From a virus, in IMG/VR virus record IMGVR_UViG_3300037189_002319, positions 1-28,825 of that record: a DNA stretch of 28,825 bases; one strand, 5' to 3'. Position numbers and translations under genes: made by a program. The notes below the pieces were generated by a model. It made no database searches. It had not been told where the DNA came from and was given only the letters and a program-made list of their open reading frames with translations. This document shows positions 360-17,491 of the stretch, in pieces. Each line of letters begins with the position of its first letter. Positions within the stretch are counted from its first letter, which is position 1.

Positions 360-388
360 GTATAAATGTCTGTGGTATCAGGTATAAT
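360..388 (+). promoter_or_regulatory. Promoter with conserved ATGTC spacer motif
   Basis: TATAAT lies at 383-388. The 17-base spacer 366-382 begins ATGTCTGTGGTA and matches the spacer found in eight other promoters of the window. The -35 position (GTATAA) is poor, which suggests the spacer motif contributes to activity. It precedes the gene at 430. Confidence 0.65.
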
Positions 389-429
389 GAATACATCAAC
401 AAATAACCCCTAACAAATAAGGAGATAAA

Positions 430-882
430 GTGGCAAGAGCCATTTCAGTAAAAATCCCAACCCACAAAGTCATTGAGATGATTGAGCAGAAGATTGCTCA
501 AATCAACGAAGACATTGCTACCTACCCTGCTCGCAAGGCTCAGTATGTAGCAGACCGACAGGCATACACCGAAAAGGTTGTTGCTGTTGTTGCTGACCTG
601 CTAACCAAGCGTGGTGCTGAGTTGCTATCTAGCGAAGACCAAGACAACAAGGTTGGCGTTAGCACTAACTACCGCAACGCTTTGGAACTTACCATTGGTA
701 AGGACTTGGTTGCTGGTTTGGAAAAGCCAACCGAGCCACAAGACCCAGAGCCAAAGGGCTACTACGGACAGCAGTATGGTTCTAAAAAGGCAGAGTTGGA
801 GAAGACCCTGCGTTTGCTCAAAATGAGTGAGCAGGAGACGATTACTTCGTCTGCTTACAACAGCGTTCTAGAACTGCTGTAA
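430..882 (+). CDS. Hypothetical alpha-helical protein, 150 aa
   Basis: GTG start at 430 with a strong AAGGAG site at 419-424. The predicted product is mostly helical: an N-terminal heptad-like stretch (about residues 11-60) rich in Glu, Lys, Ala and Val, then a Pro/Gly/Tyr-rich linker (about 100-117) and a short helical C-terminus. No catalytic motif is visible. It is a single-gene unit between the promoter at 360-388 and the terminator at 977-1025. Not recognised; a structural or DNA-binding role cannot be told from sequence alone. Confidence 0.8.
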   Translation: MARAISVKIPTHKVIEMIEQKIAQINEDIATYPARKAQYVADRQAYTEKVVAVVADLLTKRGAELLSSEDQDNKVGVSTNYRNALELTIGKDLVAGLEKPTEPQDPEPKGYYGQQYGSKKAELEKTLRLLKMSEQETITSSAYNSVLELL

Positions 883-976
883 AACGCAAACACCTAAGCA
901 AGTGTCTAAAAGGCTTCCAAAACCATTGGGCTGGTGTGGCAATGGGAAGGGTAAAAACTATGGCTACCAGATGAAG

Positions 977-1025
977 TCCCCCTGTGAAGTGTCTGGATAG
1001 ATGCTGGTTAGCAGGGGGATTTTTT
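977..1025 (+). terminator. Rho-independent terminator
   Basis: TCCCCCTG (977-984) pairs with CAGGGGGA (1012-1019) and is followed by six T (1020-1025). The loop is long and could hold a minor stem. It ends the 430-882 unit. Confidence 0.8.
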
Positions 1026-1027
1026 CG

Positions 1028-1047
1028 CTGCGCAGTTTTTTCTGCGC
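1028..1047 (+). repeat. CTGCGCAG palindrome and hairpin, copy 1
   Basis: The palindrome CTGCGCAG (1028-1035) overlaps a perfect hairpin: GCGCAG (1030-1035), six T, then CTGCGC (1042-1047). It follows the terminator at once. Further copies of CTGCGCAG follow operon ends at 2251, 3508 and 6350. Confidence 0.6.
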
Positions 1048-1110
1048 CCCCCACCACCTGCCCCAGTTTACGAAGACTAAAAATATTTCCAGAAATAATG
1101 CTAAATGGTA

Positions 1111-1139
1111 TTGACAATGTCGGTGGTATGCCTTATAAT
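1111..1139 (+). promoter_or_regulatory. Consensus promoter TTGACA-N17-TATAAT with ATGTCGGTGGTA spacer
   Basis: TTGACA at 1111-1116, TATAAT at 1134-1139, spacer beginning ATGTCGGTGGTA. Upstream are TTACGAAG (1068-1075) and the dyad TTTCCAGAAA (1086-1095), a block that recurs before the promoter at 3596. It drives the DUF932 gene. Confidence 0.85.
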
Positions 1140-1180
1140 GGTATTATCAACAAATAAATCACTAAGAGAAAGAGATACAA

Positions 1181-2197
1181 ATGGCTCACGAAATCGAAAT
1201 CGGTGCTAATGGCGAAGCCGCATTTGCTTCACTACGCCAACCAGCGTGGCACAATCTAGGCACTGTGTTTGAAGAGCAAGTCAATACAGCAGAGATGCTA
1301 AAACTTGCTCACCTTGACAACTGGAATGTTCGTCTTGAAGATGTAACCATTCCTGAAACCTTTGAGAGCGACAAGGCTTACTCATTCGTTACTCGCACTA
1401 ACCCTTTTGACACTACCAAGAATGATGTTCTCGGTGTTGTTGGTGAGCGTTATGTTCCACTACAAAACGAAGACCTATTTTCGTTTGGCGACAACTTGCT
1501 AGACGGTGGTGGTCGTTGGGAAACTGCTGGCTCAATCAAGGGTGGTCGTCAAGTATTCGGCTCTATCGCTCTTGCTGACAGCATTACCCTAGACCCTAAT
1601 GGTCGTGCTGACAAGATTGACAACTACCTTCTTATCAACACTAGCCACGACGGTTCTATCGCTATTCAGGCAAGCATTACGCCTGTTCGTGTAGTCTGTG
1701 CTAACACTCTCAACCTTGCTCTATCTTCATTCAAGGGTAAGAAAGCAGCGAAGCAGACTTTCAAAATCCGCCACACTTCAACTGCCGAAGGTAAAATCGC
1801 AGTTGCTCGTGAAGCACTAGGTCTTGCTAAGACTTACATTGACGAGTTTTCTTCTATGGCTAACGCTATGATTGAAAAGGAAATCACTAAGGCACAGTTT
1901 GACCAGATTGTTGCTCTTGCTTACCCTGCCCCTGAAAAAGACGCTAAGGGTTCATTCAAGAAATACGACAGCAAGATTGACCTGCTAAACGCAATCTACA
2001 TTGGACAGTTCAACGACACCATTGCTGGCACTGCTTGGGGTGCTTACAACGCATTGACCGAACGCCTAGACTGGCACAGGTCTGCTCGTGGTGGAAGCAA
2101 CGAAAGCATTTACGCTTCGGCTTCTGGTTTTGACCCTGTAATCAACGCAGAGAAGAACCGCTTGATGAAGGTGGTTCAGTCGGTTGTAATGGCGTAA
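1181..2197 (+). CDS. DUF932 phage/plasmid-like protein, 338 aa
   Basis: ATG at 1181, preceded by AAGAGAAAGAGA at 1164-1175. The N-terminus (AHEIEI, then RQPAWHNLGTVF at about residues 19-30) and the length fit the DUF932/TIGR03299 'phage/plasmid-like protein' family. The region around residues 90-200, including VGERYVPLQNEDLF and the following beta-rich stretch, also fits. The family is widespread on actinophages and plasmids, and its biochemical role is not settled; a link to replication or recombination is often suggested by context. It is a monocistronic unit with its own strong promoter and terminator, which suggests high expression. Confidence 0.85.
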   Translation: MAHEIEIGANGEAAFASLRQPAWHNLGTVFEEQVNTAEMLKLAHLDNWNVRLEDVTIPETFESDKAYSFVTRTNPFDTTKNDVLGVVGERYVPLQNEDLFSFGDNLLDGGGRWETAGSIKGGRQVFGSIALADSITLDPNGRADKIDNYLLINTSHDGSIAIQASITPVRVVCANTLNLALSSFKGKKAAKQTFKIRHTSTAEGKIAVAREALGLAKTYIDEFSSMANAMIEKEITKAQFDQIVALAYPAPEKDAKGSFKKYDSKIDLLNAIYIGQFNDTIAGTAWGAYNALTERLDWHRSARGGSNESIYASASGFDPVINAEKNRLMKVVQSVVMA

Positions 2198-2208
2198 GCC
2201 ATTCAACC

Positions 2209-2250
2209 CCTGCCCCTGTATTCCAGAAACGGAATATGGGGGTGGGATTT
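2209..2250 (+). terminator. Strong hairpin terminator after DUF932 gene
   Basis: Arms 2209-2224 and 2231-2246 form an uninterrupted 16-bp stem (some G-T pairs) around AGAAAC, followed by ATTT. The CTGCGCAG palindrome lies immediately after at 2251-2258. Confidence 0.75.
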
Positions 2251-2275
2251 CTGCGCAGATTTTCAAAACTGCCTA

Positions 2276-2304
2276 TTTACAATGTCGTAGGTATCCTGTA
2301 TAAT
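2276..2304 (+). promoter_or_regulatory. Promoter TTTACA-N17-TATAAT with ATGTCGTAGGTA spacer
   Basis: TTTACA at 2276-2281 and TATAAT at 2299-2304. The spacer begins ATGTCGTAGGTA and ends ATCCTG. It drives the operon 2336-3495. The leader carries AAGAGAAAGAGA at 2319-2330. Confidence 0.8.
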
Positions 2305-2335
2305 AGATACTATAACCCAAGAGAAAGAGAACCCT

Positions 2336-2761
2336 ATGTCCCAAGACCGCTATTCATCCAGAACCTTTGGCACTATCGTTCACGTCATTGACGTTGAGAA
2401 GGCTACCGAGTTTATTAGAAACCGCTTTGAGAACCCACAAGCAGACATAAAGGCAGAACGTATGGCTGTCGTAAATGGCAAGAATGGTTTGGCTACTGTT
2501 CTTGATGAAGGTGTTGGCTGGTTCGCAGATAAAGATGGTGGCATTCCTATCAACTATTGGGGTAAGAATGGTAGCGGTGGCTACATTGACGTTACCGCTG
2601 ACGAGTTGCGAACCCTAATCAGTGATGAAACTACTGACCTTGCTGACCACATTCGGGTATTTGGAGACCGCCTAGAAACTAACCTTTACGTCTGGCAACA
2701 GTATGCTAAGGGATACCCACAGGACAAAATGTCGCTGGTTGCTGGTATACTAGTAGCCTAA
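2336..2761 (+). CDS. Hypothetical protein, 141 aa
   Basis: ATG at 2336 after the AAGAGAAAGAGA leader. First gene of a six-gene operon of small proteins. The product is a mixed alpha/beta, slightly acidic protein with a Gly-rich middle (GVGWFADKDGGIPINYWG, about residues 58-75) and no visible catalytic motif, signal peptide or membrane segment. The 3' end of the reading frame contains a promoter (2723-2751) for the following gene, so its last codons carry a second signal. Not recognised. Confidence 0.8.
   Translation: MSQDRYSSRTFGTIVHVIDVEKATEFIRNRFENPQADIKAERMAVVNGKNGLATVLDEGVGWFADKDGGIPINYWGKNGSGGYIDVTADELRTLISDETTDLADHIRVFGDRLETNLYVWQQYAKGYPQDKMSLVAGILVA
2723..2751 (+). promoter_or_regulatory. 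Intragenic promoter with ATGTCGCTGGT spacer
   Basis: TATACT at 2746-2751, spacer 2729-2745 beginning ATGTCGCTGGTT, and a weak -35 (GACAAA). It lies inside the end of the 2336 gene, 25 bases before the next start, and matches the repeated promoter family. Confidence 0.55.
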
Positions 2762-2775
2762 GAGAAAGAGAAGCA

Positions 2776-3027
2776 ATGCGTAAATACAATGTAAAGGTTC
2801 AGGTAAACTACGAAGGCGACATCTACGCTAACAGCGAAGAAGAAGCAGAGCAAATGGCGTGGCATTCCTACTATGGTGATGACGCACCGATTACCTACGA
2901 CAGCGTAGAAGAGATTGTTGTTGATGAGTATGACCACTGCGAAACTTGCGACCACCCAGAAGATGAGTGCGAGTGTTGCGAAGAGTGTGGCAAACTCTAT
3001 GAAGATTGCGAGTGCGAAGATGCCTGA
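2776..3027 (+). CDS. Acidic protein with Cys-rich zinc-binding tail, 83 aa
   Basis: ATG at 2776 after AAGAGAAAGAGA (2760-2771). The N-terminal half has an alternating beta strand then an acidic helix (KYNVKVQVNYEGDIYA, then SEEEAEQMA). This resembles the small DpnD/PcfM-like fold and also the 4229 gene of this window. The C-terminal 30 residues hold ten cysteines in CxxC, CxCC and CxxC groupings within Glu/Asp-rich sequence, predicting a metal site. Function is unknown; an adaptor or nucleic-acid-mimic role is possible given the acidity. Confidence 0.75.
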   Translation: MRKYNVKVQVNYEGDIYANSEEEAEQMAWHSYYGDDAPITYDSVEEIVVDEYDHCETCDHPEDECECCEECGKLYEDCECEDA

Positions 3028-3145
3028 ACTTTACAAAATTAGACTTACAGATGAGTTTTACAACATCTATGAGTGTAAAGGCTGTGGTAAGCAATGGAAG
3101 TCTTACTACAAGAAGATAGGACACAAACAATGCCCAAGAAAGTAA
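3020..3145 (+). CDS. Small zinc-ribbon-like protein, 41 aa
   Basis: ATG at 3020 overlaps the previous stop by 8 bases (ATGCCTGA). The product is basic, with an early beta stretch (MPELYKIRLTDEF) and ECKGCGKQW plus a C-terminal HKQCPRK, giving a Cys-X2-Cys and His-X2-Cys pair typical of a minimal zinc finger. Its tight overlap with neighbours supports translation. No specific role recognised. Confidence 0.6.
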   Translation: MPELYKIRLTDEFYNIYECKGCGKQWKSYYKKIGHKQCPRK

Positions 3146-3228
3146 AATGTGAACACCATTTCATTTGTGATTATTGCATCGATTGTGGTGCTTATTATAT
3201 TTCTAAGCCAATAAAGGAGCAGCAGTGA
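3130..3228 (+). CDS. Mini zinc-binding peptide, 32 aa
   Basis: ATG at 3130 overlaps the previous stop by 16 bases. CEHHFICDYCIDCG (residues 7-20) supplies four Cys and two His in tight spacing, enough for one zinc site. Its last bases hold the AAGGAG site and the GTGA overlap for the next gene, consistent with translational coupling. Very short, so moderate confidence. Confidence 0.5.
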   Translation: MPKKVKCEHHFICDYCIDCGAYYISKPIKEQQ

Positions 3229-3368
3229 ACGAAGAGTTAGAAAACATGATTGCCGAACGTGAAGCAAGCATGGAGCGTATTTGGGAGATTGTGAAGACAT
3301 GGGACTATAAGACCTACCGCACGGCTCAACGAATGTTTGCCCCTGTTGATAGTGAAGATGAAGAGTGA
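3225..3368 (+). CDS. Hypothetical acidic helical protein, 47 aa
   Basis: GTG start at 3225 overlaps the preceding stop as GTGA and has AAGGAG five bases upstream. The product is largely helical with an acidic C-terminus (DSEDEE). No motif recognised. It belongs to the same operon of tiny overlapping genes. Confidence 0.6.
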   Translation: MNEELENMIAEREASMERIWEIVKTWDYKTYRTAQRMFAPVDSEDEE

Positions 3369-3495
3369 TACAGAAGTTGTCTTGGAACTCATTGACAGTT
3401 TCATGGCAATTCCAGGCGTGGACGAATTACCTACATCTACTATTCTAAACATGCTGAGACTGAGAATTGTTGACCCTTACTTCTATGAGAAGTAG
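3358..3495 (+). CDS. Hypothetical helical protein, 45 aa
   Basis: ATG at 3358 overlaps the previous stop by 11 bases. The product is helical and Leu/Ile-rich, ending YFYEK. The TAG stop lies inside the 3' arm of the terminator hairpin 3474-3498, so translation of the last codons would disturb the hairpin. Not recognised. Confidence 0.6.
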   Translation: MKSDTEVVLELIDSFMAIPGVDELPTSTILNMLRLRIVDPYFYEK

Positions 3496-3498
3496 GGG
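3474..3498 (+). terminator. Hairpin terminator overlapping a stop codon
   Basis: CCCTTACTTC (3474-3483) pairs over ten positions with GAAGTAGGGG (3489-3498) around TATGA. It is followed by CTTCAATTT and the CTGCGCAG palindrome at 3508-3515. Confidence 0.65.
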
Positions 3499-3595
3499 CT
3501 TCAATTTCTGCGCAGCCCAATTATTATGTAAAGTAACCATGCTAGACATTGTTCACCGATTACGAAGAGACTAAAAATTCCCAGAAAATTGGGTC

Positions 3596-3624
3596 TTTAC
3601 AATGTCGGTGGTAGGGTGTATAAT
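3596..3624 (+). promoter_or_regulatory. Promoter TTTACA-N17-TATAAT with ATGTCGGTGGTA spacer
   Basis: TTTACA at 3596-3601 and TATAAT at 3619-3624. The spacer begins ATGTCGGTGGTA, identical over 12 bases to the promoter at 1111. TTACGAAG (3560-3567) and TTCCCAGAAAA (3578-3588) precede it, as they do at 1111. Confidence 0.8.
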
Positions 3625-3656
3625 TGAAACCTAACCAAGAGAAAGAGATAACCCCT

Positions 3657-4190
3657 ATGCACGTTCTACAATGGGTAGCAGTTGAAGCAGACGACGAAGA
3701 GACTGCAGCAGACGAAGCCGAGAGCCTACTAAACCAGGCAATGGGTGACGGAGAAAACCCTTCCAGTTGGTATGACTGGTTTGTTGTTGGTGGTGGACGT
3801 TGGAACCAAATGCAAGACCCTTACCACAACTCTACTAACATGATTATCAGTTACGATAAAGACCCTGTTGGCTTCCGAGCAAAGATTGACAAGGCTATCG
3901 AATACCGTATTGAAGAATACAATCGCATGTATGCTGAAGTCAAGGAGCAGGACATTCTTAGCAAACTAGATAACTATGGTGGCGTAATGAGTTACGACCC
4001 TATGTTCTACTCGCTCAAGAACATGCTACGCTTTCAGAATGGTGACTGGTTTTACGACAGTGCCTTCTTTGACTTTACAGCCTGGTCTACCAACGCTACT
4101 CACATTCTTAGTAAGTTGGATAACCATGACCTAGTTACCCCGAAAACTGTATCAAAGTTTTTCCTTGTTCCTATTGACTTCCACTTCTAA
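3657..4190 (+). CDS. Hypothetical protein with GGGRW motif, 177 aa
   Basis: I place the start at ATG 3657, after AAGAGAAAGAGA (3637-3648); an in-frame TTG further upstream overlaps the -10 box and cannot be the start of this transcript. The N-terminus has a beta strand followed by an acidic helix (about residues 1-35), then YDWFVVGGGRWNQM at about 40-53. The rest is rich in Tyr, Asp and Phe. No catalytic motif is recognised. The last 17 bases of the gene begin a promoter for the next operon. Confidence 0.8.
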   Translation: MHVLQWVAVEADDEETAADEAESLLNQAMGDGENPSSWYDWFVVGGGRWNQMQDPYHNSTNMIISYDKDPVGFRAKIDKAIEYRIEEYNRMYAEVKEQDILSKLDNYGGVMSYDPMFYSLKNMLRFQNGDWFYDSAFFDFTAWSTNATHILSKLDNHDLVTPKTVSKFFLVPIDFHF

Positions 4191-4202
4191 ACCTGCTATA
4201 CT
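4174..4202 (+). promoter_or_regulatory. Promoter TTGACT-N17-TATACT
   Basis: TTGACT at 4174-4179 lies inside the end of the preceding gene and TATACT at 4197-4202 in the gap. It lacks the ATGTC spacer motif. The leader has TAGAGAAAGAGA at 4212-4223 before the start at 4229. Confidence 0.65.
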
Positions 4203-4228
4203 AGAATACCCTAGAGAAAGAGACCCCA

Positions 4229-4435
4229 ATGGCTACATTTGAAGTAAGCATTTCCTTCCACTTTGATACCACCTATGAAGTAGAAGCAGACAGTTACGAT
4301 GAAGCAGAAGAACTAGCAATGAACCTATCAGAAGAGTGGAAGCCCTACTCGTCTGACAAGGGCTACACTGACAGTTGGTATGCTGTAGATGTTGAAGCAG
4401 TAACCACTAATGATGAGTTGGATGAAGATGAGTAA
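4229..4435 (+). CDS. Small acidic alpha/beta protein, 68 aa
   Basis: ATG at 4229. The product begins with a beta strand (FEVSISFHFDTTYEVEA) followed by an acidic helix (SYDEAEELAMNL), the same pattern as the N-terminal half of the 2776 product, so the two may be distant paralogues. The C-terminus is strongly acidic (DELDEDE). First gene of the operon 4229-5559. Function unknown. Confidence 0.75.
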   Translation: MATFEVSISFHFDTTYEVEADSYDEAEELAMNLSEEWKPYSSDKGYTDSWYAVDVEAVTTNDELDEDE

Positions 4436-4616
4436 GTCTATCAAGATTGTTATGGAACTAGATTATAATCTAGATGACCTTCGCTTTATGGTTGGTGAAG
4501 ACTTTCCAGAAGAGCAATTCCGTGAGCGTGTGCTTGACTATGCAGAAGCAGACATTCACACCTACCTGCGTGACTTCGGTGTTGATGAATGGTGTTTGGT
4601 GATTGAGAATGACTAA
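4428..4616 (+). CDS. Hypothetical acidic protein, 62 aa
   Basis: ATG at 4428 is chosen because it overlaps the previous stop by 8 bases in the form ATG-NN-TAA, the same junction as the next two genes. In-frame ATG codons at 4410, 4413 and 4422 are alternatives. The product is a beta strand (SIKIVMELDYN) plus helices and is acidic. Not recognised. Confidence 0.65.
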   Translation: MSKSIKIVMELDYNLDDLRFMVGEDFPEEQFRERVLDYAEADIHTYLRDFGVDEWCLVIEND

Positions 4617-4851
4617 CGTTACCGAGCAAGAGTTTGATGAAGCAATAGACCTTCTCTATTCATTTGTAGAATCATTTCCTAACAATGACTCAGAAGACTT
4701 CTCCATGCAACTCACAGAACTGACTAACCTAGCCCACATGAAAGGCTGGCACGATGCAGTTACGATGGTATTAGATGTCGTAGGTGTGATGTATAATAGT
4801 AACCTGTATGACAACAAAACCCTAGAAGAATTGAGACAGCGAATTGTCTAA
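4609..4851 (+). CDS. Hypothetical acidic helical protein, 80 aa
   Basis: ATG at 4609 overlaps the preceding stop by 8 bases. The product is mostly helical and acidic (EQEFDEAIDLLYSFVESF and a C-terminal LEELRQRIV). The coding region carries a promoter of the repeated family at 4769-4797. No function recognised. Confidence 0.7.
   Translation: MTNVTEQEFDEAIDLLYSFVESFPNNDSEDFSMQLTELTNLAHMKGWHDAVTMVLDVVGVMYNSNLYDNKTLEELRQRIV
4769..4797 (+). promoter_or_regulatory. Intragenic promoter with ATGTCGTAGGT spacer
   Basis: TATAAT at 4792-4797; the spacer 4775-4791 begins ATGTCGTAGGTG. The -35 position (TATTAG) is weak. It lies in the 3' part of the 4609 gene and would give extra transcription of 4844-5559. 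Confidence 0.55.
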
Positions 4852-5200
4852 GACAATAACTAACCAAGAGTGGGAAGAGACCTATCTTCCTATGACTAAC
4901 CAGATAACTAATGACGGAATTGCCTACGAGACCTATGGTGATGAACTTGACTACGTCTCACAGCAGGACGAGCGGTTTGTCTGGACCGAGATGGATGGCG
5001 ACAACGGTGTGTACATCGTCAGTGGCTACCACTACGTCAATCGTATTCAATACTACATCACTAATAAGATGTGGACTGAAGACATTGAGATTGTCGTATG
5101 CGAGTACATTGATTGTGATTGCTATGACGGCGAAGTGGACCCTAAAAACAACTGCCATGAATGTGGTGGCACTGGAACTAAGACTGTGTGGGGTGACTAA
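4844..5200 (+). CDS. Hypothetical protein with DnaJ-like Cys cluster, 118 aa
   Basis: TTG start at 4844 overlaps the previous stop by 8 bases (TTG-TC-TAA), matching the two junctions before it; ATG at 4892 is an alternative. The C-terminus holds IDCDCYDG and CHECGGTG (about residues 88-111), a CxC plus CxxCxGxG arrangement like half of a DnaJ zinc repeat. The N-terminal part is acidic and Tyr-rich. Probably a zinc-binding protein of unknown role. Confidence 0.7.
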   Translation: MSKTITNQEWEETYLPMTNQITNDGIAYETYGDELDYVSQQDERFVWTEMDGDNGVYIVSGYHYVNRIQYYITNKMWTEDIEIVVCEYIDCDCYDGEVDPKNNCHECGGTGTKTVWGD

Positions 5201-5559
5201 TGGAAAAAGACTGGGACCTAAACATCTTCTTCAGAGAAGACTACAACGTTGAAACTGACGAGACTACATGGGACGACGTTATAACTATCAATCCTGTAGT
5301 TTATTCATGGGACGCTGAACGCTCTGATAACTGGTACACTGACATTCTGTTTACTACAACGTTTGCAGAAGCACGTTACCTTCGAAGCGTGTACCCTGAA
5401 AACGAGTACGGTATGGACTGGACAGACAGCCTACAGAACTTTCTGGAGATTGCTCCTCCACGTTTAGCCTCTCTGCTTGGGACCCTACCCAATGCATATG
5501 ACACTAATGAAATTAATAAACTTGGTGGGTTGAGAGCACTCCCTACCAATGACGGATAG
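5200..5559 (+). CDS. Hypothetical protein, 119 aa
   Basis: ATG at 5200 overlaps the previous stop (TAATG). The product is acidic and rich in Trp, Tyr and Asp in the first two thirds. The C-terminal third is Leu/Pro-rich. No motif recognised. It ends the operon and is followed by a hairpin at 5586-5623. Confidence 0.7.
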   Translation: MEKDWDLNIFFREDYNVETDETTWDDVITINPVVYSWDAERSDNWYTDILFTTTFAEARYLRSVYPENEYGMDWTDSLQNFLEIAPPRLASLLGTLPNAYDTNEINKLGGLRALPTNDG

Positions 5560-5585
5560 GTTAGGGGTTTCCGATTCCGTCACAT

Positions 5586-5623
5586 GTGGGGAGGGTGGGC
5601 AAATTAGTGCTTGCCTTCCCCAC
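5586..5623 (+). terminator. Large hairpin after the 4229-5559 operon
   Basis: GTGGGGAGG (from 5586) pairs with CCTTCCCCAC (to 5623), with an inner GGCAA/TTGCC stem. There is no T-run after it; the -35 of the next promoter lies in its 3' arm (5611-5616). Confidence 0.5.
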
Positions 5624-5639
5624 AACATTTTGGTATAAT
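5611..5639 (+). promoter_or_regulatory. Promoter TTGCCT-N17-TATAAT
   Basis: TTGCCT at 5611-5616 and TATAAT at 5634-5639. It has no ATGTC spacer motif. The leader has AAGAGAATAGAG at 5647-5658 before the GTG at 5663. Confidence 0.6.
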
Positions 5640-5662
5640 AGAACATAAGAGAATAGAGTAAA

Positions 5663-5863
5663 GTGAGTAAAACAAATGAAGAGAAGTTTGCTACTGTTGT
5701 AAGTAATCTTATTAGTGATTTGAGATTTGACTTAGACATAGCAGGAAAGTATTTAGCGTGGTATCTGCCCAATGTAGCATTTAGAAGGTTTATGCTGATA
5801 GCAGAAGCGGCTAAGGAAGAGCGAGAAGGAAAGAAACATGAGCGAGACAACATTAGAGAATAA
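5663..5863 (+). CDS. Hypothetical helical protein, 66 aa
   Basis: GTG start at 5663, five bases after the purine-rich AAGAGAATAGAG. The product is helical and has a charged, basic C-terminal third (EEREGKKHERD). It overlaps the next gene by 26 bases. Not recognised. Confidence 0.6.
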   Translation: MSKTNEEKFATVVSNLISDLRFDLDIAGKYLAWYLPNVAFRRFMLIAEAAKEEREGKKHERDNIRE

Positions 5864-6104
5864 GGCTAGTATCCTTGCCGAACTGTGGATGACTTACAGG
5901 GATGACGAGAACTTTACAGATTTTATTAGTTATAATGACATTGGGTTACCACTAGCCTATGTTGTATCATCTGGTATTGTGAAGACAACCGAGATGGCTA
6001 ATAAGTTTATTGATGAAACGTTCTCTCTGCTCCTAGCCAGTCTTGAAGTAGAAGATGAAGGCTTCGAAGAACTTGATGATGTATTTCTACAAGCACCACG
6101 CTAA
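5838..6104 (+). CDS. Hypothetical acidic protein, 88 aa
   Basis: ATG at 5838 inside the end of the previous gene. The product is acidic with a moderately hydrophobic middle (GLPLAYVVSSGIV, about residues 36-48) and a very acidic C-terminus (EVEDEGFEELDD). Not a clear membrane protein. The last codons form the -35 position of the next promoter. Confidence 0.65.
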   Translation: MSETTLENKASILAELWMTYRDDENFTDFISYNDIGLPLAYVVSSGIVKTTEMANKFIDETFSLLLASLEVEDEGFEELDDVFLQAPR

Positions 6105-6128
6105 AATGTCGGTGGGTAAGGGTATAAT
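6100..6128 (+). promoter_or_regulatory. Promoter with ATGTCGGTGGG spacer, leaderless start
   Basis: TATAAT at 6123-6128, spacer 6106-6122 beginning ATGTCGGTGGGT, and a poor -35 (GCTAAA). The ATG of the next gene begins seven bases after the -10, so the mRNA should be leaderless. Confidence 0.65.
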
Positions 6129-6134
6129 GTAACT

Positions 6135-6311
6135 ATGACTAATCAAGAAGTAACATACACAGTAACTCGCACAGCAGTAGAGTTGTGGGCTAATCGCACA
6201 TTCACAGACGAGCAGTGGGACAAACTGTCTCGCTCTATCTATGAGACAATGAACTACTTTGTTTGGGAAGACATGACCCAGAACCTAGACGAACTAGATG
6301 TGCTTGAATAG
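6135..6311 (+). CDS. Hypothetical protein, 58 aa, leaderless
   Basis: ATG at 6135 follows TATAAT after six bases, the leaderless geometry seen repeatedly in this window. TAG is at 6309-6311. The product is acidic and helical with three Trp (ELWANRTFTDEQW, DMTQNLDELD). No motif recognised. It is the last rightward gene before the convergence region and is followed by a hairpin and CTGCGCAG. Confidence 0.65.
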   Translation: MTNQEVTYTVTRTAVELWANRTFTDEQWDKLSRSIYETMNYFVWEDMTQNLDELDVLE

Positions 6312-6321
6312 ATAAATAGTT

Positions 6322-6349
6322 ATCCCCTTGCCACCAGGCATCGGGATTT
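6322..6349 (+). terminator. Hairpin terminator at end of rightward arm
   Basis: ATCCC..TGCC (6322-6332) pairs with GGCA..GGGAT (6337-6347), with a two-base internal mismatch, and is followed by TTTC. The perfect 14-base palindrome TTTCTGCGCAGAAA (6347-6360) comes next. Confidence 0.5.
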
Positions 6350-6537
6350 CTGCGCAGAAAATTATAACAATTTGGTAACACCTATTGACAAATCGCCAAA
6401 AGTGTGTATAGATGAAAATCCCAAATAGATTTGTTTGACATATCCCGATATTACGATGGTCGAAATTTTTCCAGGAAATCCATATTTGTTTAAATAAAGA
6501 TAACCCCATATTACGAACCCCAAAATATTTTTCCCGA

Positions 6538-6566
6538 AATATAATGTCAGTGGTATATGCTATATG
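6538..6566 (+). promoter_or_regulatory. Degenerate copy of the ATGTC promoter with no gene after it
   Basis: The spacer ATGTCAGTGGTATATGC (6544-6560) precedes TATATG (6561-6566); the -35 position is AATATA. No credible coding region follows, so any transcript would be non-coding and run into the hairpins at 6610 and toward the DnaA boxes. Confidence 0.4.
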
Positions 6567-6609
6567 TTTATACTATAGGTAATTCTCCTTTACGATGGTT
6601 GTTTAAATA

Positions 6610-6636
6610 CCCCCGAATGGGGGCTGGCTTTGCCAG
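6610..6636. repeat. Two adjacent GC hairpins
   Basis: CCCCC-GAAT-GGGGG (6610-6623) is followed directly by CTGGC-TTT-GCCAG (6624-6636). Both stems are perfect and stand out from the AT-rich surroundings. No T-tract follows. Confidence 0.6.
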
Positions 6637-6699
6637 GGTATTACGAAGCATGCCTGATATCCCTAGTAGAGATATAACACCTATTACGAACCCCTGTTT

Positions 6700-6800
6700 A
6701 TTTTTCCCATATTTATATATGTTTTTATTTATTTATTTAATTTATTATTGATAATCATTATCATTTATTAAATAAATTTAAATAAAATGTTACATTTATA
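6700..6800. other. Very AT-rich block, candidate unwinding element
   Basis: Nearly pure A/T with many TTTATTTAA and AAATAAATTT runs and the palindrome TGATAAT-C-ATTATCA at 6749-6763. It lies about 150-250 bases from the DnaA boxes. Confidence 0.5.
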
Positions 6801-6956
6801 TAACGATTTGGTCGCTATGGGAATATAACAATTTTATTACGATAGGGGGATTTGGGAAAATGATTACGAAGCCTGTTAATGATTTGCACTATTACACACT
6901 ATTCTTTCCAACATCCCTATCCTTAATGAAAACCATTATCAACAGTAATATTTATC

Positions 6957-7009
6957 TGTGGATAACTATGTGGATAACCTGTGGAAAACTTTAGTTTACT
7001 TGTGGATAA
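6957..7009. other. DnaA-box cluster, putative replication origin
   Basis: TGTGGATAA, the complement of the perfect DnaA box TTATCCACA, occurs at 6957-6965, 6969-6977 and 7001-7009, with the one-mismatch TGTGGAAAA at 6980-6988. Start-to-start spacings of 12, 11 and 21 bases are close to whole helical turns and all boxes point the same way. With the AT-rich block this is the usual form of a DnaA-dependent origin. No DnaA or replication initiator gene is in the window. Confidence 0.75.
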
Positions 7010-7077
7010 CTCTCTATTTTTGTGGGGTATCAAAGACAATGCCAAAGCCCCATAGCCATTTAGGCGTATTTCCTCTT

Positions 7078-7144
7078 ATCATCCAAACCTCTTTGGTTCT
7101 TATGAATTCAAGACTATATGGCTTCTTGGATGATATGAGCCTAT
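7078..7144. repeat. Inverted repeats near the leftward operon end
   Basis: ATCATCCAA (7078-7086) is the exact inverted repeat of TTGGATGAT (7136-7144). CCAAA/TTTGG lies inside it, and TATATGGCT versus AGCCTATA overlap the right arm. This may be a structured RNA, terminator or protein-binding site; there is no T-tract typical of a terminator. Confidence 0.4.
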
Positions 7145-7189
7145 ATCGTTTAAACTGTATTCTCATTAGGTGTATTCTTTCTACTAGGA

Positions 7190-7393
7190 TTACGAAGCAT
7201 CTTTTGTATGCCCCGAATTTTTAATAAGTGCAATTACTGAGGCTACTTTATCATTATAGTCCCAGATACTATGTGTAGTTGAATGCTCAAGACTTTCTAG
7301 CAATTTAACTATACGGTCTCGCTCCTCATTGACACCTGTTTTATAGGCATTGTCAATCGCAGCAAGAATATTTAGTCCTTCATCATGCATCAT
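7190..7393 (-). CDS. Hypothetical helical protein, 67 aa
   Basis: ATG at 7393 overlaps the stop of the adenosyltransferase gene as ATGA. The product is a helical protein resembling small actinophage proteins with a GVNEERDRIVKLLESL segment (residues 20-35). It ends the leftward operon 8850-7190; its TAA stop is part of a TTACGAAG copy. Function unknown. Confidence 0.7.
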   Translation of the reverse strand: MMHDEGLNILAAIDNAYKTGVNEERDRIVKLLESLEHSTTHSIWDYNDKVASVIALIKNSGHTKDAS

Positions 7394-7986
7394 TCTGCGT
7401 TACCTATATCCCTGAATCGCTTTGGTGGATGTTGTTCTCCACCTGGATTCCATAGTTCTTCATGCTCATTGTAGAACCTAGCCATTACGAACATTAGGTC
7501 TGATAGTCTATTTAGGTATTGTTTTACTAGAGGGTTTGTGAACCTGAATTCATCTACCGCCCATGCTCTACGCTCTGCCCTACGAACAATTGTTCTGGCA
7601 TTGTGGAACAGTGCTGATGTTTGATTGCCACCTGGCATTACGAAGGAGTTTAGCGGTTTTAGCGTTATATTATATAAATCAATATCTAATTCAAGATTCT
7701 TAACCATCTGCTCTGTTACTCGCAGTTTACCGTCATGCTCCTTTACGATGGGTGTGCATAGGTCTGCACCTACATCAAAGAGTTCATTCTGTAGCCTATG
7801 CAAAACACTGTGCCCATTCGACCCCATAGTGCCAAAAGCCATAATCATACCAATAGCAGAGTTTGCTTCATCTACTGTGGAATATGCTTCAATTAGTGGG
7901 TCAGTCTTAGATACCCTGGAATTATCTCCTAGAGCAGTTGTACCATCGTCACCAGTCTTGGTGTAGATTTTAGTTAGATGAACCAT
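7390..7986 (-). CDS. PduO-type cob(I)alamin adenosyltransferase, 198 aa
   Basis: Transfers the 5'-deoxyadenosyl group of ATP to cob(I)alamin to make adenosylcobalamin in the cytoplasm. Family hallmarks are visible. The ATP-binding N-terminus has TKTGDDGTTALG (residues 9-20), and EAYSTVDEANSAIG follows at 33-46. SFVMPGG lies at 114-120, VRRAERR at 134-140 and YLNRLSDLMF at 157-166. Length is normal and nothing appears missing, so an active enzyme is likely. ATG at 7986 has AAAGGAG four bases upstream. As an auxiliary metabolic gene it could feed a class II ribonucleotide reductase; none is in the window. Confidence 0.9.
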   Translation of the reverse strand: MVHLTKIYTKTGDDGTTALGDNSRVSKTDPLIEAYSTVDEANSAIGMIMAFGTMGSNGHSVLHRLQNELFDVGADLCTPIVKEHDGKLRVTEQMVKNLELDIDLYNITLKPLNSFVMPGGNQTSALFHNARTIVRRAERRAWAVDEFRFTNPLVKQYLNRLSDLMFVMARFYNEHEELWNPGGEQHPPKRFRDIGNAE

Positions 7987-8125
7987 ACTTCTCCTTTAGT
8001 AGAACAATCGCACCATACAAATTAATGCTGTGGTCTTCTTTTTGTAATTTTTCTAGAAAATGAATTATTTCATTTCCAGTTTGAATTTTAACTACATTTT
8101 CCAAATTAGTTAATAATCTATTCAT
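7970..8125 (-). CDS. Hypothetical protein, 51 aa
   Basis: ATG at 8125 overlaps the previous stop by 8 bases and TAA (7970-7972) lies 17 bases inside the adenosyltransferase gene. Its 3' end carries the AAAGGAG for that gene, suggesting translational coupling. The product is helical and Leu/Lys/Asn-rich. No motif recognised. Confidence 0.55.
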   Translation of the reverse strand: MNRLLTNLENVVKIQTGNEIIHFLEKLQKEDHSINLYGAIVLLKEKYGSSN

Positions 8126-8366
8126 GTCCATTGTTCCATCCAATCGGTTCTAGGTCAGGTTCGTGTTTCTTAATTGCTTCTATAATCTCTTTACGAGTGT
8201 ATGGTTCTTCTTTCAACCAGTTAACATCATGAACAAACTTATTTACCTTGTCCATAATCTGCTTGTGGCATTCTTCCATACCTGCTTCATAGCCATGTTC
8301 CCAACCAAGGTCGTAACCTTGTTGGATTAGGCGTAAACGCCATTTAAATATCTTAGGCAACTGCAT
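8118..8366 (-). CDS. Hypothetical protein, 82 aa
   Basis: ATG at 8366 is chosen for the GAGGA five bases upstream; ATG at 8378 and a TTG at 8384 are in frame. The product starts basic (PKIFKWRLRLIQQGYDLGWEHG) and becomes acidic. GYDLGWEHGYEAGMEECH resembles short motifs seen in small phage proteins, but no family is certain. It overlaps both neighbours. Confidence 0.65.
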   Translation of the reverse strand: MQLPKIFKWRLRLIQQGYDLGWEHGYEAGMEECHKQIMDKVNKFVHDVNWLKEEPYTRKEIIEAIKKHEPDLEPIGWNNGHE

Positions 8367-8850
8367 AATTTTCCTCATGTGCAACCCAATAATACTTACA
8401 AGGTTCTTTACGGTCAGGGCAACATGGGTTGCTTTTCGCTAACGCACTAAAGAATTCAAAGTAGTATGTTGGGTCTTTCTTGTATAGGTTCGCTTTGTGT
8501 GTAGTGGTAAGACGCTTCATCTTAACATCATCTTCATACCAAGCAGGGATTTCGAATCCCCAGTCAATTGCGTGGGTGTTAATAAGGTCTACAATGTTCT
8601 GCATGTTCTTATCGGTCTTAATGCCACGTTCATTTGCTTCTCTAACCATAGACATGGTGTAGTCAAGTAGTAGGTGTTCATAGCCACGCCACATCTTCAC
8701 GGCTGGATGGTTACGCCATCCTGCTCGTGGGTCTGGGTTGGATAGTACTTTTAGGATTTGGTAGCACTCTAGAATCTGCTTGTTAAGTCGCTTGCTGTCT
8801 AGTGCTTGTGCAGACTTGTCAAAGTCTTTGTAAGGTAAAAAGGTTTGCAT
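8353..8850 (-). CDS. Pyrimidine-dimer DNA glycosylase-related protein, 165 aa
   Basis: The N-terminus MQTFLPYKDFDKSAQALD, then SKRLNKQILECYQIL (about residues 19-33) and GWRNHPAVKMWRGYE (about 44-58), matches the bacterial family annotated as related to pyrimidine dimer DNA glycosylase (Pyr_excise). Family members resemble T4 endonuclease V in fold, but repair activity has not been generally shown. The C-terminus has extra Cys residues (CCPDRKEPCKYYW, about 143-155) of unknown purpose. ATG at 8850 with a GAGAGA site; the operon promoter is at 8882-8910. A role in DNA repair is inferred. Confidence 0.75.
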   Translation of the reverse strand: MQTFLPYKDFDKSAQALDSKRLNKQILECYQILKVLSNPDPRAGWRNHPAVKMWRGYEHLLLDYTMSMVREANERGIKTDKNMQNIVDLINTHAIDWGFEIPAWYEDDVKMKRLTTTHKANLYKKDPTYYFEFFSALAKSNPCCPDRKEPCKYYWVAHEENYAVA

Positions 8851-8881
8851 ACGTTCTCTCTCGTTTAATGGACCTTATATT

Positions 8882-8910
8882 ATTATACAGGATACTCGCT
8901 TGCTTGTCAA
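8882..8910 (-). promoter_or_regulatory. Consensus promoter TTGACA-N17-TATAAT, leftward
   Basis: On the minus strand TTGACA is 8910-8905 and TATAAT 8887-8882. The spacer ends GTATCCTG, like the promoter at 2276. It drives the operon 8850-7190. Confidence 0.85.
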
Positions 8911-8922
8911 GCGGATAGACCT

Positions 8923-9117
8923 CTATTCACCGCCGAACTTTTCGCCCGAACTTTGAATGAACTCTAGAATAGTTTGATATTGTATGAAGCCTAGCCCTGT
9001 ACGCTTTGCTTCGGCTGCTAAGAAATCAACGAAACGCTCACGCTCATTGATGATACCGATAAGGTATGAAGTGAGGTCAGTAACCCCTTGTGCATCTAAA
9101 TCTTTTAATTTTCCCAT
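8923..9117 (-). CDS. Hypothetical protein, 64 aa, leaderless
   Basis: ATG at 9117 lies six bases after a minus-strand TATAAT (9129-9124), so the transcript should start at the start codon. A longer in-frame extension upstream would cross its own promoter and is rejected. The product is helical (NERERFVDFLAAEAKR, about residues 24-39). Not recognised. It is divergent from the 9169 gene. Confidence 0.7.
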   Translation of the reverse strand: MGKLKDLDAQGVTDLTSYLIGIINERERFVDFLAAEAKRTGLGFIQYQTILEFIQSSGEKFGGE

Positions 9118-9123
9118 GTGTCC

Positions 9124-9152
9124 ATTATAAGGCATACAGAAGTCATTGTCAA
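9124..9152 (-). promoter_or_regulatory. Consensus leftward promoter TTGACA-N17-TATAAT
   Basis: Minus-strand TTGACA is 9152-9147 and TATAAT 9129-9124. The spacer starts ATGACTTCTGTATGCCT, sharing ATG and TATGCCT with the 1111 promoter. It overlaps the divergent promoter for 9169. Confidence 0.85.
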
Positions 9153-9156
9153 GTGC

Positions 9157-9162
9157 TATAAT
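9157..9162 (+). promoter_or_regulatory. -10 box for leaderless gene 9169
   Basis: TATAAT at 9157-9162, six bases before ATG 9169. The -35 position (about 9134-9139, ATACAG) is weak. It overlaps the divergent promoter, so the two likely compete. Confidence 0.6.
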
Positions 9163-9168
9163 ATAAAT

Positions 9169-9363
9169 ATGACAGACAAATATCGGTACATCATTTATCC
9201 AGAACGCATCTACGTTGTAGAGGTTGCTGGAGACTCTGTGGAGATTGAAGGACAAGACATTGTTAATATTATTCCAGATATCCTACGCAGAAAATACATT
9301 GAGGCTTGCTTTGGTTATGATGTTTTCCCATTTGACAAAACAGAAGAAAGTTTGGTAGAATAG
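9169..9363 (+). CDS. Hypothetical acidic protein, 64 aa, leaderless
   Basis: ATG at 9169 is set by the TATAAT six bases upstream; an earlier in-frame ATG lies upstream of the -10 box. The product is beta-rich then helical (YRYIIYPERIYVVEVAG, residues 5-21; DILRRKYIEACFGYD, about 37-51). Acidic overall. First of six overlapping rightward genes ending at 10069. Not recognised. Confidence 0.7.
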   Translation: MTDKYRYIIYPERIYVVEVAGDSVEIEGQDIVNIIPDILRRKYIEACFGYDVFPFDKTEESLVE

Positions 9364-9364
9364 T

Positions 9365-9478
9365 ATGGCTGCAAAGAAAACATCAACACGCAATAGCAAC
9401 CGCCAGAATGGCAAGGCTTCTAAGAAAAGCCCAAAGGTCTTTGACCCTGCAAAGCGTAGACTAGTAAAGGTAAACTAA
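9365..9478 (+). CDS. Very basic peptide, 37 aa
   Basis: ATG at 9365 follows the previous stop by one base. Of 37 residues, 13 are Lys or Arg, with many Ser and Asn (MAAKKTSTRNSNRQNGKASK), like an unstructured nucleic-acid-binding peptide. TAATG links it to the next gene. Function is not recognised; DNA or RNA compaction is a guess. Confidence 0.6.
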   Translation: MAAKKTSTRNSNRQNGKASKKSPKVFDPAKRRLVKVN

Positions 9479-9654
9479 TGGATAGAAAGACTCGTAGAGA
9501 TAACGAGCGTATTATCAATACAATTAAAAAGAAGGCTGTTAAGGATACTGAGGATTGGATTCTTAGTTTGTCTTCCCCACCAACCAGGGCAGAGTTATTG
9601 GCTTTCCAGGCTGGATATATTGCTGGCATGAACCGTGGGAATTACCGTGCGTGA
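9478..9654 (+). CDS. Hypothetical basic helical protein, 58 aa
   Basis: ATG at 9478 overlaps the previous TAA. The product has a basic N-terminal helix (RKTRRDNERIINTIKKKAVK, residues 3-22) and a second half PTRAELLAFQAGYIAGMNRG typical of small phage proteins. No known family assigned. Confidence 0.65.
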   Translation: MDRKTRRDNERIINTIKKKAVKDTEDWILSLSSPPTRAELLAFQAGYIAGMNRGNYRA

Positions 9655-9808
9655 TTTTAAGAACCCCTATTACGATGGTCCAGACTGTGTCTGTTGCCAT
9701 CACATTAAAGAGGATGCAATAAAAGAAATTATTAAGATGCTTGAGGAACAAGATTCTGTCTGTTCTGATTGGGTTATCGCTCTTATTGAAAAGGATATTG
9801 AAGTATGA
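9647..9808 (+). CDS. Small Cys/His protein, 53 aa
   Basis: GTG at 9647 overlaps the previous stop by 8 bases; GTG at 9651 is out of frame. CVCCHH (residues 14-19) and a later Cys give a possible metal site, followed by an acidic helix. A TTACGATGG motif copy lies within the coding region. ATGA couples it to the next gene. Not recognised. Confidence 0.55.
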   Translation: MRDFKNPYYDGPDCVCCHHIKEDAIKEIIKMLEEQDSVCSDWVIALIEKDIEV

Positions 9809-9924
9809 ATTGGGTAGAAATACTTTTTCTTATTGTTGGATTGCCAATCATTTTGTTATTGGCTTGGCTAGGTGACTCCAAGAGAGACATTTTGGATTGG
9901 TCTAACGACGAAGATGAGTTCTAA
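9805..9924 (+). CDS. Single-pass membrane micropeptide, 39 aa
   Basis: ATG at 9805 overlaps the previous stop as ATGA. Residues 4-22 (VEILFLIVGLPIILLLAWL) form one transmembrane segment, followed by an acidic tail (NDEDEF). Such small membrane proteins in phages can be holin partners, exclusion factors or regulators; nothing here decides between these. Confidence 0.65.
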   Translation: MNWVEILFLIVGLPIILLLAWLGDSKRDILDWSNDEDEF

Positions 9925-10069
9925 ATGCGGATGGTGTATGACTGGCAACCATGCCTCATGCAAACCTTCTATTACTTACCATGAGAAAACGTGGGTGTGT
10001 GACTGTCAGTGTCGTACTCAGGTTCATTCTGAGGATACTGCTCAAGACACTCATAGCAAAAGTGAGTAG
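9914..10069 (+). CDS. Small zinc-binding protein, 51 aa
   Basis: ATG at 9914 overlaps the previous gene by 11 bases. SSKCGWCMTGNHASC (residues 2-16) and CDCQC (about 29-33) form the pattern CxxC...GxHxxC...CxCxC, common in small actinophage zinc proteins. Its 3' end overlaps the convergent 9972-10199 gene by 98 bases. Confidence 0.7.
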   Translation: MSSKCGWCMTGNHASCKPSITYHEKTWVCDCQCRTQVHSEDTAQDTHSKSE

Positions 10070-10199
10070 GCTTAAAGTCAAATGGCTTAGGTATACCACC
10101 TAATACAAGTTTATCTTCTTTGGCTAGTTCTATCATTTCAAATGTGGGGAATCCGTAAACCACATCAACCATTGGATTATTACATAGGGGACAATTCAT
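9972..10199 (-). CDS. Zinc-ribbon protein, 75 aa, leaderless
   Basis: ATG at 10199 lies six bases after a minus-strand TATAAT (10211-10206), indicating a leaderless mRNA and a 75-residue product. CPLC (residues 3-6) and CYEC (about 49-52) make a zinc ribbon, with VVYGFPTFEMIELAKEDKLV and LGGIP between them. This layout resembles small actinobacterial zinc-ribbon proteins of unknown function. The 3' end lies antisense to the 9914 gene. Confidence 0.75.
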   Translation of the reverse strand: MNCPLCNNPMVDVVYGFPTFEMIELAKEDKLVLGGIPKPFDFKPTHFCYECLEQYPQNEPEYDTDSHTPTFSHGK

Positions 10200-10205
10200 A
10201 ATACT

Positions 10206-10234
10206 ATTATACACTACATCCTTTACAATGTCCA
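10206..10234 (-). promoter_or_regulatory. Leftward promoter TGGACA-N17-TATAAT
   Basis: Minus-strand TGGACA is 10234-10229 and TATAAT 10211-10206. It overlaps the rightward promoter 10222-10250 by 13 bases, so the divergent leaderless genes probably compete for polymerase. Confidence 0.7.
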
Positions 10235-10250
10235 GGGTCTCTGATATAAT
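10222..10250 (+). promoter_or_regulatory. Rightward promoter TTTACA-N17-TATAAT, ATGTCCAGGGT spacer
   Basis: TTTACA at 10222-10227 and TATAAT at 10245-10250. The spacer begins ATGTCCAGGG, a diverged member of the repeated family. The start codon at 10257 is six bases after the -10. Confidence 0.75.
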
Positions 10251-10256
10251 AGATAC

Positions 10257-10640
10257 ATGATTATTTGTGATATTGATGACACCATTCTACGAGCAGGGCA
10301 GTACCCTATCAAGAAAACTATTGACTACGTTAACTCTCTTAAGACTAGAGTAATTATCGTAACTGGCAGAGAACGCAAAGACCGTGCGGAGACCGAAGCC
10401 ATTCTAAAGAAGATTGGTATTAAGTATAACTCTCTTCTTATGAACCCTTATTCTTATAGAGATTCTAATAAGTGGAAGCGTGAGGCTGCTGCTAAGTTGC
10501 ATGACGCTACCCTGGCAATTGACGACAACGCTGGTGCTAGAAAGGCTTACGAAGCCGAAGGCATTAAGGCTATCCATCCTGATGATGTTCCAGACATGGA
10601 AAAGTTCTGGTCTGTATTTGAATCCAACAGCGGATTCTAA
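10257..10640 (+). CDS. HAD-superfamily phosphatase, 127 aa, leaderless
   Basis: CDIDDTI (residues 4-10) is HAD motif I with nucleophile D5 and acid D7. IVTGRER (34-40) is motif II. Lys at about 73-75 serves motif III, and LAIDDNAGAR (86-95) is motif IV with D89/D90. Length fits a small capless HAD phosphatase, like the phosphatase domain of T4 Pnkp or small 5'-nucleotidases. Substrate is unknown; a nucleotide or nucleic-acid 3'-phosphate is plausible. Start set by TATAAT six bases upstream. Confidence 0.85.
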   Translation: MIICDIDDTILRAGQYPIKKTIDYVNSLKTRVIIVTGRERKDRAETEAILKKIGIKYNSLLMNPYSYRDSNKWKREAAAKLHDATLAIDDNAGARKAYEAEGIKAIHPDDVPDMEKFWSVFESNSGF

Positions 10641-17200: not shown

Positions 17201-17491
17201 TTATTCCTTATCTATTGTTAAATCAGACCAGGTGTCAGCCCAGGCTTGTTTTGATTTGTGTCTATTAAATTCTCTAGATATCTTTCCGTTATCCAGATAG
17301 ACTCCGCCCCATACACCTGTCTGTTTAGTTGATACCCCAACTGCGAAACATTGTCGCATAACAGGACAGGTAGAACAGAACTCATCTATATCTTTCCTTA
17401 ACTCAACGTCTTCTTCGTAGTCGTCAAAGAAAAGATTTGTGTCCCAACCATTACATTTGGCAGAATCTCTCCAATTTTTGTCATTTGGCAT
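17201..17491 (-). CDS. WhiB-type Fe-S transcription regulator, 96 aa
   Basis: Four cysteines bind a [4Fe-4S] cluster: C13, C39, C42 and C48, followed by the turn GVWGG (59-63) and a basic helix ending in SREFNRHKSK. WhiB-like (Wbl) proteins are restricted to Actinobacteria and their phages, where they bind sigma factor region 4 and change promoter choice; some phage versions, such as TM4 WhiB, act against the host. ATG at 17491 overlaps the previous gene. It is the strongest host-lineage marker and a candidate regulator of the repeated promoters. Confidence 0.92.
   Translation of the reverse strand: MPNDKNWRDSAKCNGWDTNLFFDDYEEDVELRKDIDEFCSTCPVMRQCFAVGVSTKQTGVWGGVYLDNGKISREFNRHKSKQAWADTWSDLTIDKE

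Follow-up and report, generated by a model that had tools for sequence, protein, structure and literature searches.

Early-region promoters of an actinophage fragment resemble the RecA-NDp/PafBC damage-response promoters of actinobacteria

In lambda-type induction, phages use the damage response of the host through LexA/RecA. The actinobacterial damage promoter that is independent of LexA/RecA reportedly follows the RecA-NDp consensus TGTCRGTG-N8-TAnnnT, as given by Gamulin in 2004. RecA-NDp promoters are now recognised as PafBC sites (PMC8223512, review; Mueller 2019, PMC6789036). PafBC is a WYL factor that is activated by ssDNA and fits itself between the DNA and domain 4 of sigma-A; PafB reads a motif at -26, the -35 box is dispensable, and without polymerase and ssDNA PafBC does not bind promoter DNA (Schilling 2025, PMC11804915). 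Among individual genes, S. coelicolor SCO6735 has been described as carrying a RecA-NDp promoter (PMC5087735). No report of phage use of PafBC was found in the open-access literature searched. PafBC promoters are themselves already known; what would be new is that a lineage of uncultured actinobacterial viruses runs its early genes from them, as the sequence comparisons below suggest.

Promoter anatomy in the window

The window, the whole 28,825-nt (28.8 kb) stretch of virus DNA analysed here, encodes TerL, ThyX and DUF932 proteins with 54-56%, ~70% and 54% identity, respectively, to those of Stanwilliamsviridae (Streptomyces BE-type phages), many of which encode WhiB, and judged by these identities it is probably a fragment of a related actinophage. 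Throughout, 'early' denotes a block of small rightward genes apart from the structural genes, a definition based on position and not on time. The candidate promoters, together with the genes and repeats referred to in the text, are as follows.

367..388, + strand: PafBC-type promoter TGTCTGTGG-N7-TATAAT, upstream of ORF 430-882; -35 absent (GTATAA, 2/6)
1111..1139, + strand: hybrid promoter TTGACA-A-TGTCGGTGG-N7-TATAAT, preceding the DUF932 gene
1181..2197, + strand: DUF932 gene (Pfam PF06067, 1.6e-51; 54% to Streptomyces BE-type phages), behind the 1118 element
2276..2304, + strand: hybrid promoter TTTACA-A-TGTCGTAGG-N7-TATAAT, upstream of ORF 2336-2761
2730..2751, + strand: PafBC-type promoter TGTCGCTGG-N7-TATACT, within the 3' end of ORF 2336-2761 and 25 nt before ORF 2776-3027
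3596..3624, + strand: hybrid promoter TTTACA-A-TGTCGGTGG-N7-TATAAT, before ORF 3657-4190
4776..4797, + strand: PafBC-type promoter TGTCGTAGG-N7-TATAAT, within the end of ORF 4609-4851 and before ORF 4844-5200
6107..6128, + strand: PafBC-type promoter TGTCGGTGG-N7-TATAAT, before ORF 6135-6311; top score (37.1), -35 absent
6545..6566, + strand: TGTCAGTGG-N7-TATATG, a weaker candidate, within the AT-rich stretch 6300-7190; it scores 18.1, more than any shuffle
7393-7986: full-length cobalamin adenosyltransferase gene (PF01923, 3.5e-57)
8356-8850: pyrimidine-dimer DNA glycosylase gene (PF03013, 3.7e-21)
10222..10250, + strand: hybrid promoter TTTACA-A-TGTCCAGGG-N7-TATAAT, followed at 7 nt by a HAD/polynucleotide-kinase-like phosphatase gene
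10257-10637: polynucleotide-kinase-like phosphatase gene (phrog_415, 6.7e-16)
17201..17491, - strand: WhiB gene (Pfam Whib, 5.8e-13)
27, 1068, 3560, 4760, 6451, 6511, 6590, 6641, 6684, 6837, 6864 and 7190: examples of TTACGA copies

The original prediction placed nine elements in this region, all rightward and each at a fixed distance from a TATAAT-like box. All nine are present and lie on the + strand; the box is found at eight, the exception being the site predicted at 6544 (6545..6566 here), where the -10 is only TATATG (4/6) and a clear gene behind the site is absent. As anticipated, the element is commoner than chance: TGTCnnnGG-N7-TAnnnT occurs eight times on the + strand of the window and never on the - strand, against 0.21 expected for both strands together, and TGTC-N12-TATAAT seven times against 0.09 expected. 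A matrix scan, which had been proposed as a check, was run with an independent matrix of 268 training sites, all from other phage contigs, with five near relatives left out to guard against circularity. Its nine best-ranked matches in the window were exactly the nine sites, all on the + strand, with scores of 17.1-37.1 compared with a maximum of 13.4 across 40 shuffled windows.

Judged by its letters and spacing, the window element is the actinobacterial RecA-NDp/PafBC motif and not a WhiB signature. The TGTCRGTG core is exact in four of nine sites and carries one to three changes in the remainder, with several sites differing at element positions 5-7 (e.g. TGTCGTAGG and TGTCCAGGG), and 8 nt separate TGTCRGTG from TAnnnT in eight of nine. 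The likeness to RecA-NDp/PafBC promoters of mycobacteria and streptomycetes extends to the TGTCRGTGG core, the 7 nt to TAnnnT, the apparently dispensable -35 and the non-palindromic element; the SCO6735 primer in PMC5087735 contains TGTCAGTGG-TGGCCCG-TACGGT adjoining the start codon, a gap also of 7 nt. Unlike those promoters, the phage sites form early-region arrays of as many as 25, have a near-perfect TATAAT, mostly precede genes of unknown function, are in some cases fused to a consensus -35 and, in the window, have no close SOS box.

Several -35 hexamers had been described as poor, and five of the nine indeed match at no more than 2/6 positions, which would be explained because a PafBC site removes the need for a -35 box. 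A good -35 is present at four of nine sites (TTGACA at 1111; TTTACA at 2276, 3596 and 10222), and these four promoters could be functional by their -35 alone. Leftward promoters with good TTGACA were also confirmed; they are plain (TTGACA-N17-TAnAAT, e.g. 8910, 9152, 14245, 21769) and the element is absent from them. The rightward block also holds two promoters of plain sigma-70 type, which point rightward and start at 39 and 4174.

Two known regulatory systems were rejected as sources of the element. For LexA control, the SOS box TCGAACANNTGTTCGA had two matches with three mismatches in the window versus 0.96 expected, neither of them at the nine sites. The mycobacteriophage L5 stoperator has a CCACC half; here, ATGTCGGTGG takes the place of that half after TTGACA.

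The 6-mer TTACGA is strongly strand-biased in the window (33 copies on + versus 5 on -; ~9 expected per strand), and copies are clustered in 6300-7190, an AT-rich stretch with few genes between the rightward and leftward blocks that may be a replication origin. In other phages, TTACGA outnumbers every other 6-mer upstream of PafBC-type sites, usually lying 30-50 nt ahead of TGTC, and its density is 0.85 per kb in early loci versus 0.14 in late loci. The DNA repair genes of the phage (8356-8850 and 10257-10637) adjoin damage-type promoters. The full-length cobalamin adenosyltransferase gene is unusual phage cargo, and a search with it did not indicate a host clade.

Distribution among other phages

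In the collection scan, TGTCGGTGG-N7-TATAAT was found in at least 120 stretches, compared with 37 for the reversed motif, all 37 of them single; within 120 such stretches, which were chosen by the motif, the loose form numbered 468 against 5 for the control. An unbiased set of 58 phage loci (456 kb), fetched by DUF932 protein query and not by motif, held 291 motifs versus 1 reversed control, with 284 on the gene strand and 7 on the other, and the strict form occurred 157 times versus 0 for the control. The arrays are restricted to early regions. Terminase (TerL) loci were at background (10 versus 3 control, strict 0:0, in 80 loci totalling 609 kb), and in whole records of 55-112 kb the strict sites, as many as 25, shared a single strand and formed a cluster in one region.

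The logo built from 324 array sites of other phages reads AAAA-TGTC-(G 0.69/A 0.24)-G-T-GG-N7-TATAAT, in which the free positions resolve to the published RGTGG form, the sequence before TGTC is A-rich and an A peak lies 7 nt after the -10 box. A -35 consensus is absent from the logo, 26 of the 324 sites having a -35 of at least 5/6, and start codons are mostly found 20-50 nt downstream of the elements. Individual promoters are conserved as well. The architecture and start-codon distance of the DUF932 promoter in the window recur in loci found by protein, and the hybrid form TTGACA-A-TGTCGGTGG-N7-TATAAT is also found at DUF932 promoters of several relatives. Of 45 homologues of ORF 430-882, all in loci chosen by motif, 28 had the motif no more than 300 nt upstream.

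Some relatives have an nnACC second half or few sites. TGTCnnACC-N7-TATAAT stands at orthologous early promoters of some of them (69 gene-strand sites, 0 on the opposite strand), including L382, the locus with the closest DUF932 (95% identical), and a shift of PafBC site preference is possible. A separate sequence, GGCGTGTC, has a density in early loci of other phages (such as L004 and L009) that is ~24 times that in terminase loci; it is absent from the window. A phage-encoded WYL factor was sought in 49 virus records, of which many are fragments, and none was found.

Element arrays were absent from the three Stanwilliamsviridae genomes scanned (Samisti12, Comrade and Tomas), and no site was found in the 131.8 kb of Rhodococcus phage Grayson. 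Low GC was rejected as the source of the arrays, given that Grayson has 41-42% GC and yet no site. PafBC is reportedly a general feature of actinobacteria, and, given this generality, the lack of arrays in cultured Streptomyces and Rhodococcus relatives counts against the PafBC reading. So do the changes at element positions 5-7 in several window sites, the nnACC form or scarcity of sites in some relatives, and the good -35 of four window promoters.

PafB-PafC and recA in proxy hosts

Small genomes of actinobacteria that carry actinorhodopsin and have 41-51% GC served as proxies for the likely hosts. WYL proteins were encoded in 34/34 proxy genomes, with a tandem pair ~950 bp apart in nearly all; typically, a genome has PafB, PafC and a single further WYL domain, which lies in a far longer (>700 aa) frame. 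The tandem pair of locus L372 matches PafB and PafC of solved structure (E 1e-30 to 1e-40), and the PafB of locus L371 matches the solved PafB structure (E 2e-30). FKBP-like and TrmI-like genes, named by eye, precede both pairs.

The strict motif is enriched in proxy hosts (57 versus 9 for the reversed form). Upstream of recA and dnaE2-like genes, it adjoins the SOS box TCGAACAnnTGTTCGA, with spacing as in the phage; these gene names were taken from translations by eye, and recA was confirmed by search. Across 30 proxy-host recA loci, TGTCAGTGG is present in most element carriers, TGTCAGTGC in 3, TGTCAGCCC in 2 and TGTCGGGCC in 1, and a recognisable element is missing at about a third. The second half at host recA varies between GTGG, GTGC, GCCC and GGCC, a GTGG-to-CCC split similar to the nnACC divergence of the phages. 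A coevolved PafB recognition helix was rejected as the cause of the GTGG/GTGC/GCCC/nnACC classes, as the RMFERDK(D/N)(D/E)LR segment is identical across them; another contact, PafC or tolerance may account for the split. In proxy hosts without a clear PafBC site (L531, L535-L537, L544-L549), GGCGTGTC lies just upstream of the recA SOS box. A pattern scan of genome contigs returned mostly chance matches from unrelated phyla.

Proposed mechanism and alternative explanations

We consider it very probable that these nine elements serve the early genes as promoters of the RecA-NDp/PafBC type, and that host PafBC drives the early genes in response to ssDNA arising upon infection. This ssDNA would come from phage replication or from breakdown of the host chromosome and would render PafBC active, raising early transcription. 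The host PafB-PafC heterodimer, loaded with ssDNA, would read TGTCRGTGG at about -26 and be wedged between sigma-A domain 4 and DNA, so that the housekeeping polymerase could start from TATAAT with or without a -35. At the hybrid promoters (TTGACA/TTTACA), basal sigma-A firing could come first, followed by a PafBC boost. We infer binding of PafBC to the phage sites and the triggering role of infection ssDNA, and likewise the timing of expression, the benefit to the phage and which host it infects. The earlier ideas that the element can replace the -35 through an activator, and that it tags a group of phage (early) genes, are retained in this proposal. The notion of a purely phage-made regulon is not, given that the element is the host RecA-NDp/PafBC motif, occurs at proxy-host recA and is accompanied by PafB-PafC in the proxy hosts.

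The original prediction also named WhiB as a natural candidate for the activator. A phage protein, either WhiB (17201-17491) or a factor from the missing part of the genome, would in that case bind sigma-A region 4 and read the element. WhiB is encoded in the window and common in cultured relatives, and the record is a fragment, so further regulators may lie outside; however, the element occurs with equal spacing at host recA, and arrays are lacking in Samisti12, Comrade and Tomas. That Grayson encodes WhiB (gp202) yet has no site argues against WhiB as the regulator. We know of no WhiB recognition of TGTCRGTGG, and we regard control by a phage protein as very unlikely. Still less probable is that these are ordinary sigma-A promoters with a spacer conserved by another host factor or by DNA shape, without PafBC. 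The absence of a -35 from five of nine window sites and from most array sites speaks against this, as does the resolution of the free positions to exactly RGTGG, even though both the -35 and the -10 are good at the hybrid sites and plain TTGACA promoters occur in the same block. Proxy hosts also offer few other WYL candidates, because they typically have only PafB, PafC and the one >700 aa frame.

We give least credence of all to the sites being decoys that draw PafBC off host repair genes and weaken the host damage response. With up to 25 sites per phage, many copies would be present once the phage had replicated, but PafBC requires polymerase and ssDNA to bind promoter DNA (PMC11804915), and the sites retain a -10, an initiation-like A and a start-codon distance of 20-50 nt, all of which would be needless for decoys.

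Early-gene control by host PafBC would resemble the LexA/RecA-using phages in that a host damage sensor controls phage genes. Unlike in those phages, control would be exerted by PafBC activation and not by relief from LexA, SOS boxes being at chance level in the window, and it would act on early genes in a relative of apparently lytic phages. With more reserve, we favour the broader view that a widespread lineage of virulent phages infecting low-GC actinobacteria has most of its early genes under host PafBC, serving as a sensor of infection or replication with no repressor or phage activator, and that phage groups, and likewise host recA promoters, have come to differ in the second half of the element. 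If this is true, the host could not easily silence the phage promoters without loss of its own DNA-repair response, and the phage arrays would represent hundreds of natural PafBC promoters, showing what PafBC reads. Infection of dominant freshwater actinobacteria would then be tied to DNA damage such as that from sunlight.
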